Virus record (IMG/VR): IMGVR_UViG_3300042563_002299
Coordinates: 1 to 64,000 of that record
DNA: 64,000 bases
Source of the DNA: a virus
Direction: 5' to 3' (one strand)
Position numbers and translations under genes: made by a program. Shown here piece by piece: positions 12,666 through 13,599 of the stretch. Under the pieces are notes generated by a model. The model had not been told where the DNA came from. It worked only from the letters and a program-made list of their open reading frames with translations, and ran no database searches. Positions within the stretch are counted from its first letter, which is position 1; each line of letters begins with the position of its first letter.

Positions 12666-12796
12666 AAAATAAAACCCCCACCGGTACCAGTGGGGGAGTG
12701 TAATTTCATTCTACCGTATAGATAGAATTGAGGAGTTTCACCCTGGTGACTTCAGGCACCTTCCGCCGAGTTGTATGGGTAATCTCGGTTCAACCC
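12666..12796 (-). ncRNA. Structured small RNA 2 (about 130 nt) downstream of the sigma-factor gene
   Basis: The 197-nt gap between the sigma-factor gene and the membrane-protein gene holds a structured RNA read on the minus strand. GGGU 12796-12793 pairs with ACCC 12780-12777, crossing CCGAG 12788-12784 with CUCGG 12770-12766 (H-type pseudoknot). Next comes GGUG 12760-12757 with CACC 12748-12745, competing with CCUG/CAGG, then a hairpin AUUCUA/UAGAAU and a strong terminator. A TATTTAT box ends five nucleotides upstream. The order of elements and the length mirror RNA 1 although the sequences differ. It could also be a 3' UTR of the sigma mRNA. Confidence 0.65.
12675..12696 (-). terminator. 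Intrinsic terminator of small RNA 2 / sigma operon
   Basis: Perfect 7-bp GC-rich stem CCCCCAC / GTGGGGG with an 8-nt loop that itself contains the palindrome GGTACC. The minus strand continues with a long T-rich tract (12674-12661). Confidence 0.9.
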
Positions 12797-12798
12797 TT

Positions 12799-13599
12799 TT
12801 ATAAATAATCAAACAACTCTGAAGATTCATTTCGTAATCTACGAAGTGCCTTCTCTTTAATCTGACGAACACGTTCTTTAGTTAAACCAAAGTCAGATCC
12901 AATGTCTTCCAAAGTACGGGGTGTACCGGTAATCCCAAAATAATCACCAACAATTACTCGTTCTCTGTCATCCAAACCATTCAAAAGACCCATAAGTTTG
13001 TCTTTAAGAACATCTTTGGTATTGAACGCCGCGTCAGGAGCCAAGGCATCTTTATTTTCAATCATATCAACCAATGTATCACCTTCATCGTTAATATTCA
13101 TATCAAGGTCTATAATTGAGGGTAGTGTTGAGAATTTGTCATCCAATTTCTTACCTGTTTGTTCAACCTCTTTCTTCGCCTTATGTAAATCCTGAACCAC
13201 ATTAACTGGTAGACGGATTGTTCGTGAGTTGTCGTTCAGTGATTGAATAATTGATTGTTTAACCCACCACACAGCGTAAGAAATGAAACGTAGGTCTTTA
13301 TGCCAATCAAAGTTTTTAATTGCTTTCATCAAACCTAAATTACCTTCAGCAATAAGATCCGACAAGTCCAAACCTTGATTTTGGTATTGTTTTGCCACCG
13401 TAATAACAAAACGTAAGTTTCCTGTCAAAAGCTCTTCCTCAATTTGTTGTTTCTCAATCAAGGTAAGATCGTTTGACTTCATTCGTGTTGCCAACAGACG
13501 TTCGCGTTCTGCTGTCATTACCTTAATTTTTCTAATGTCTTTAAGGTAATGGTAAATCTCATCCTGATTAATAGGTGCTCCTGTGTTTTTGTCCTTCAT
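12799..13599 (-). CDS. Sigma-70 family RNA polymerase sigma factor (primary-sigma-like)
   Basis: A 266-residue sigma factor. Visible parts: a region 1.2-like segment (DEIYHYLKDI, about 14-25), region 2 with NLRFVITVAKQYQNQGLDLSDL and FISYAVWWVKQSI (about 80-150), region 3 after RTIRLP, and region 4.2 helix-turn-helix (LEDIGSDFGLTKERVRQIKEKALRRLR, near the C-terminus, given here only as landmarks LEDIG, GLTKERVRQI). It resembles the short primary sigmas of Bacteroidota rather than T4 gp55, which lacks most of these regions. It likely redirects host RNA polymerase to phage promoters, with the TATTTAT boxes as the obvious candidates. Confidence 0.95.
   Translation of the reverse strand: MKDKNTGAPINQDEIYHYLKDIRKIKVMTAERERLLATRMKSNDLTLIEKQQIEEELLTGNLRFVITVAKQYQNQGLDLSDLIAEGNLGLMKAIKNFDWHKDLRFISYAVWWVKQSIIQSLNDNSRTIRLPVNVVQDLHKAKKEVEQTGKKLDDKFSTLPSIIDLDMNINDEGDTLVDMIENKDALAPDAAFNTKDVLKDKLMGLLNGLDDRERVIVGDYFGITGTPRTLEDIGSDFGLTKERVRQIKEKALRRLRNESSELFDYL
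12801..12807 (-). promoter_or_regulatory. TATTTAT box directly before small RNA 2
   Basis: TATTTAT overlaps the stop codon of the sigma gene and is followed after AAAA by the GGGU that opens the RNA 2 pseudoknot. Because no protein follows, this copy argues for a promoter rather than a translation signal. Confidence 0.5.

Follow-up and report, generated by a model that had tools for sequence, protein, structure and literature searches.

Here, we report an apparently undescribed family of tightly folded, pseudoknotted small RNAs of about 95–140 nucleotides (nt), one member of which, RNA 2, lies on the minus strand at 12796–12702, with its terminator at 12696–12675, in a 64,000-nt stretch of viral DNA (the window; 34% G+C) that forms part of the 81.5 kb IMG/VR record IMGVR_UViG_3300042563_002299. 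A second member, RNA 1, occupies about 2820–2951 on the plus strand. The shape of the family is well supported by evolutionary evidence, and we read RNA 2, with a probability of roughly 0.6, as a phage RNA gene whose product would act in trans and be recognised by its structure. The family is carried by many lake phages of Bacteroidetes in one or two versions each, and was found in more than 100 IMG/VR stretches.

A shared pseudoknot fold and its covariation

The 5′ part of RNA 2 reads GGGU-UGAA-CCGAG-AUU-ACCC-AUACAA-CUCGG and is followed by the hairpins P3 and P4, the dinucleotide CA, hairpin P5, GAAA and a terminator (Table 1). An initial annotation made from the sequence had proposed that GGGU/ACCC and CCGAG/CUCGG cross each other in a pseudoknot ahead of a hairpin region and a strong terminator. 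Both helices (S1 and S2) are present where they had been placed, the hairpin region resolves into P3, P4 and P5 followed by GAAA, and the terminator stands behind it. The same annotation had seen a similar layout in RNA 1, where the order of parts proved to be identical. Equally good crossing helices, whose frequency in random sequence had been raised as a possible objection, appeared in only 2% of cases when the RNA 2 gap was dinucleotide-shuffled and in 1% when this was done with the RNA 1 gap (0.7% and 0.1% within the first 45 nt). These rates are better than chance, yet not decisive without relatives. The RNA 2 gap also folds better than its shuffles in a plain fold that cannot display a pseudoknot (z −2.5).

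A search baited with the sigma-70 family protein encoded upstream of RNA 2 retrieved 80 viral loci; type I RNA, the type of RNA 2, was found inside the retrieved stretch in 46, in many of them directly behind sigma. A pattern scan of IMG/VR that made no use of sigma gave 89 stretches with type I. Types II (that of RNA 1) to IV were gathered by pattern scans, type III having first been seen in searches with R2, a covariance model made from type II sequences including RNA 1 and from no type I sequence. The type II pattern is AGGA-U-GUCAG ... UCCU ... CUGAC and the type III pattern UGAUUG-UU-AUUGGU-U-CAAUCA ... ACCAAU, while S2 of subtype IV is GUUAGG/CCUAAC; all three carry P3, P4, CA, P5, GAAA and the terminator. 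Among the relatives S1 thus occurs as GGGU/ACCC, AGGA/UCCU, GGGA/UCCC or UGAUUG/CAAUCA, and S2 as CCGAG/CUCGG, UUGGU/ACCGA, GUCAG/CUGAC, GUUAGG/CCUAAC or AUUGGU/ACCAAU.

Within type I the stem sequences of the pseudoknot are invariant, and a test of the pseudoknot thus has to come from the other types, type I itself offering hardly any. The type I hairpins P3, P4 and P5 have eight pairs changed on both sides and 95.6% of alignment cells paired, against 39–55% in slid controls, and P3 and P5 of type II also show compensatory changes. Model-made and hand-segmented alignments were used because MAFFT misaligned the pseudoknot between types. In the model-made alignment four of the five S2 pairs are changed on both sides, with 98.6% pairing. 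When S1 and S2 of 20 distinct pseudoknots were segmented by hand, 98.9% of cells were paired and 10 of 12 pairs were changed on both sides; none of 500 shuffles reached this result, and slid versions pair at 49% at most. Compensatory substitutions, by which the annotation had suggested judging the fold, are accordingly found in S1, S2, P3, P4 and P5.

The R2 model detects RNA 2 in register, at 12794–12704, with an E-value (E) of 0.029 in the window, and further type I loci likewise. Across 14 chosen loci, five of them of the RNA 2 type, it returned all 14 true sites and nothing else at E≤0.3. A model with RNA 2 in its training set, R1, matches RNA 2 at 12796–12702 with 109.6 bits; its match to RNA 1, at 12.6 bits the sixth of 36, is not convincing. 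Other weak matches of R1, R2 and R3 within genes were taken as chance. The cross-detection by R2 in register, together with the covariation of S1 and S2 across types, upholds the earlier suggestion that RNA 1 and RNA 2 belong to one family with a conserved shape. A pairing between the P3 loop and P4, picked out by eye in RNA 1 and in locus L179, was dropped, as neither L403 nor L314 preserves it.

The sequence itself is also conserved. At 13 sigma-linked loci the four-fold sites of sigma were on average 46% identical, as against 94% for the pseudoknot and 83% for the RNA core, and RNA identity exceeded that of the sigma four-fold sites in all 78 pairs of loci. These comparisons indicate that the RNA sequence is under strong selection.

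Table 1. Features of RNA 1, RNA 2 and the adjoining sigma gene in the window
Feature	Position	Strand	Basis or remark
RNA 1 promoter, Bacteroidetes type, TTTGG ... TATCTTTG	2785..2815	+	pattern scan
RNA 1 5′-terminal hairpin P0	2820..2832	+	leader folds; predicted start at about +1
RNA 1 core (type II)	2834..2921	+	R2, 71 bits (RNA 1 in the R2 training set)
RNA 1 S1, GGGA/UCCC	2834-2837/2848-2851	+	
RNA 1 S2, GUCAGC/GCUGAC	2840-2845/2860-2865	+	
RNA 1 P3	2871-2890	+	
RNA 1 P4	2892-2904	+	
RNA 1 P5	2907-2917	+	
RNA 1 GAAA	2918-2921	+	
RNA 1 terminator	2929..2951	+	
RNA 2 core (5′ pseudoknot, P3, P4, P5, GAAA)	12704..12796	-	R1 and R2 model matches; covariation
RNA 2 S1 5′ strand, GGGU	12793..12796	-	pairs with 12780-12777; variants in relatives
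RNA 2 S2 5′ strand, CCGAG	12784..12788	-	pairs with 12770-12766; variants in relatives
RNA 2 S1 3′ strand, ACCC	12777..12780	-	pairs with 12796-12793; variants in relatives
RNA 2 S2 3′ strand, CUCGG	12766..12770	-	pairs with 12788-12784; variants in relatives
RNA 2 hairpin P3, GGUG-CCUGAAGU-CACC	12745..12760	-	type I: both sides changed in 3 of 4 pairs
RNA 2 hairpin P4, GGGU-GAAAC-UCCU, then invariant CA	12731..12743	-	kept in all types
RNA 2 hairpin P5, AUUCUAUC-UAUAC-GGUAGAAU	12708..12728	-	type I: both sides changed in 4 of 8 pairs
RNA 2 GAAA, right behind P5	12704..12707	-	alignments; present in every type
RNA 2 Rho-independent terminator	12675..12696	-	9 pairs, 7 of them G-C, T tract; then TTTTATTTTT
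Sigma-70 family gene, directly upstream of RNA 2	12799..13599	-	Sigma70 r1.2, r2, r4

Genomic context

Proteins encoded in the window include a baseplate wedge protein, a UvsX-like protein, a DnaB-like helicase and an SbcC-like protein, which mark the virus as a T4-like contractile-tailed phage, and the TAnnTTTG −7 box ahead of RNA 1 points to a host among the Bacteroidetes. In Flavobacterium this box sits at −12 to −5 (PMC9723704), a rule that predicts the start of RNA 1 at about 2820. The hairpin P0 folded from this leader is weak for RNA 1 (p 0.14) and stronger in L179, L188 and L410; in several further type II members the predicted start likewise falls at a small 5′ hairpin. No transfer RNA or transfer-messenger RNA gene was identified in the window by the ARAGORN model.

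RNA 2 begins 2 nt past the stop codon of the sigma-70 gene on the same strand. The annotation had allowed that it might be a 3′ untranslated region (UTR) element of the sigma mRNA, and as regards position this holds. Such an element would serve stability or processing, the folded 3′ end protecting or marking the upstream mRNA with no RNA acting in trans; in keeping with it, RNA 2 and many other type I copies start 2–17 nt past an upstream stop codon and end in a terminator. The relatives, however, follow other genes or a promoter of their own: the gene upstream of type I copies varies in identity and size, sigma being only one of several, and a Bacteroidetes promoter ends 11–23 nt ahead of the GGG at 16 type I loci and lies directly upstream of most type II copies, with predicted +1 sites beyond the upstream gene. 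Moreover, the sequence conservation of type I exceeds what a protective fold would need, and we regard the 3′ UTR explanation as unlikely.

A cis-acting attenuator or riboswitch, in which the pseudoknot would be the aptamer and the terminator would control the next gene, seems less likely still. In one phage clade, type II loci do have a promoter, the RNA, a terminator and a gene for a protein of 158–173 amino acids (aa) in succession on one strand, tandem units look like tandem aptamers, and in the window a same-strand gene starts 195 nt downstream of RNA 2. Many copies, however, have no same-strand gene directly downstream and hence nothing to control: in subtype IV (L314, L354), as at numerous type I loci, the following gene is convergent with the RNA. 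The downstream genes also vary between loci, and no Rfam riboswitch was matched. The various upstream genes, the promoters and the convergent neighbours together favour a gene for a small RNA over a riboswitch or an element specific to sigma.

Per contig there is usually one type I copy and at most one of type II or III, and a phage therefore tends to hold two RNAs of the same shape and different sequence. Type I was found together with type II or III in G000, G016, G018, G022, G027, G028 and G032. In the window phage, G016, G739 and G743, one block of genes is flanked by the two RNAs, type I and type II, which point in opposite directions and are separated by about 10 kb. Two tandem units are present in seven type II loci (L141, L324, L402, L405, L410, L415 and L417), and unit number differs between related phages, with one in L414 and two in L141.

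The 158–173 aa proteins encoded after the type II RNA of one clade (2969–3454 on the plus strand of the window, L141, L297, L299, L324, L363, L402, L414 and L475) share the N-terminus MKLLxxLKSLIxES, which we take to resemble a capsid-targeting leader. As candidates for a type III toxin they were rejected, since no Pfam or PADLOC family matched; for the 161-aa protein, an AlphaFold model with a mean predicted local distance difference test score (pLDDT) of 63 was too weak to judge the fold and gave no significant fold match. Among the convergent genes after type I (for example in L056, L071 and L176), many small phage genes share an amphipathic leader such as MSLLRESIRKVLILEKK; only 3 of the 56 open reading frames (ORFs) of the window match a loose pattern of this kind. 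Two further observations concern neighbouring sequence. Past the sigma stop codon in L030, L032 and L033, a Bacteroidetes promoter is followed by an RNA-like stretch, CACAAACAACGGGTAAAGGTCAGAATGATATCTAACTGACTGG..., with GGGU near its start and ACCC near its end, which is possibly a second RNA family. Subtype IV (L314, L351, L354, L480, L487, L488) has a conserved extra segment, AUGUCGAAAAAGAGGGGCGGAAACCCAAAUAC(A/G)UCGAAAGAUGGUGAC, 5′ of the pseudoknot, and this could be more hairpins or a 19-codon ORF.

Distribution

At the gathering cut-off, none of the 4227 families of Rfam 15 matched the window or any of six loci representing types I, II and IV, and permissive Rfam scans gave sub-threshold or off-site matches only. 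Comparison with phage isolates and plasmids by blastn yielded chance pieces only, and R3 found nothing in five cultured phages (immuto, pT24, crAss001, phi14:2 and Mel-JY01). Among about 690 Bacteroidia-class genomes, R2 matched 1 of 295, and R1 matched 1 of 295 and 1 of 399 (the same genome for R1), which makes the family almost absent there; both bacterial matches come from draft genomes, in which they sit on small contigs. A literature search that covered neither subscription papers nor preprints found no paper describing the family and no non-coding RNA reported for the Bacteroidetes myovirus group.

Two occurrences on bacterial contigs have neighbours of some interest. A subtype IV RNA (L469:750-833, minus strand) lies on a 2.3 kb draft bacterial contig beside a radical-SAM protein, HxsC-like by eye, and a near-threshold DUF805b RNA motif (RF02914) is found at 188-220 of the same contig. 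A type I RNA (L199:392-487, plus strand) lies on a contig of a Bacteroidetes metagenome-assembled genome together with two genes that, judged by eye, resemble folD and a type IIG restriction-modification gene that is broken, and is possibly a defence-linked copy or a phage remnant. A pattern match in an Oscillospiraceae genome (L198) was dismissed as coincidence.

Proposed role and known systems

Depending on the locus, the gene either stands alone with a Bacteroidetes promoter of its own or forms the 3′ end of a transcript that begins upstream. RNA 1 would be transcribed from a host-type promoter and RNA 2 freed from the sigma mRNA, at whose 3′ end it lies, and stability may come from the terminator together with the structured 5′ region. 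Action in trans is favoured by the independent promoters, the terminator and the want of a consistent neighbour. The stems of the pseudoknot and of P3 vary as long as they stay paired, while P4, CA and GAAA are common to all types, and recognition would for this reason be by shape and most simply by a protein. Simple antisense pairing is argued against by the same comparison, since pseudoknot and P3 stem sequences differ wholly between types of the same shape. A classical small RNA, regulating mRNAs of the phage or its host by base-pairing, would suit the size, promoter and terminator, but almost the whole RNA is paired, its short loops vary by type and there is no long conserved single-stranded stretch, which makes this a quite improbable explanation.

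Several points weigh against a trans-acting RNA gene recognised by structure. Single R2 matches to type I are weak (E 0.015–0.06, in small search spaces), manual segmentation of the S1/S2 alignment of 20 sequences was guided by the structure, and independent pseudoknot variants number only about seven. The promoter pattern was not matched at RNA 2, which is therefore only a putative separate transcript. The protein ligand is itself inferred, and the sequence data point to no named partner.

Two published systems are comparable. In phage PhiTE, the pseudoknot RNA pseudo-ToxI neutralises a host defence, and its repeats expand (PMC3475682); it resembles the present RNAs in being a phage-encoded, non-coding pseudoknot RNA of variable repeat number, and is a precedent for an RNA decoy. 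Its 36-nt repeats are like the host antitoxin, whereas the units described here are about 90 nt long, have three more hairpins and lack a known host counterpart. The prophage-borne abiF RNA RCd22 has a promoter and a terminator and acts in trans on a protein (PMC12373285). The abiF RNAs (RF03085) are alike in length, about 100–130 nt, and in having a promoter and a terminator, but they consist of hairpin motifs adjoining an Abi_2 gene, and here there was neither an RF03085 match nor an Abi_2 neighbour.

Type III antitoxins such as ToxI and CptI are H-type pseudoknot units, sometimes in tandem, followed by a terminator (PMC5086642). An H-type unit is likewise indicated here by the covariation of S1 and S2. 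RNA 2 and most other members are single units, and two units occur at seven type II loci. Unlike those antitoxins, the members bear P3, P4, P5 and GAAA in addition, and have no ToxN-, CptN- or TenpN-like gene directly after the terminator, the downstream ORFs giving no such match in Pfam or PADLOC. Because the neighbouring toxin gene was looked for and is missing, the family was filed neither under type III antitoxins nor under abiF RNAs.

As a special case of the trans-acting RNA, a strict mimic would imitate a host type III RNA antitoxin and so block abortive infection. The pseudoknot units with their occasional tandem arrangement and final terminator, the example of PhiTE and the differing unit number of L414 and L141 speak for it. 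Set against these are the lack of an antitoxin of the same shape in the Bacteroidia-class genomes searched and of a ToxN-like gene adjoining the RNA. To our knowledge P3–P5 and GAAA are also foreign to type III antitoxins, and we consider strict mimicry rather unlikely.

The GOLLD and ROOL RNAs are much larger, multi-domain RNAs, and none was matched here in Rfam. They share with the present family the character of structured non-coding RNAs of lake phages and metagenomes (PMC12286853). A ribozyme like that of hepatitis delta virus, taken as a self-cleaving nested double pseudoknot with P3 between the P2 and P1 strands, was rejected on strand order, which here is S1-S2-S1′-S2′, S2 and S1′ being separated by only 3 nt.

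The trans-acting RNA would most likely serve the phage by binding an RNA-binding protein of the host, for example a defence ribonuclease, and either neutralising or redirecting it. As neither a toxin-like neighbour nor a counterpart in hosts was found, this decoy idea stays tentative. A bolder and rather doubtful extension would see a novel counter-defence RNA class, built in modular fashion from pseudoknot-hairpin units on a shared P4/P5/GAAA scaffold, in which the two versions of a phage titrate different host RNA-binding defence proteins.

Non-coding RNAs of phages are little known beyond a few model systems, and the RNAs described here would add a new family within the known kind of structured phage non-coding RNA. 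The consensus, the models and the natural variants (single units, tandem units and two paralogues per phage) provide a handle for functional tests. Should the RNA prove to be a decoy for a protein, it would broaden the published precedent for RNA mimics that counter toxin-antitoxin defence.
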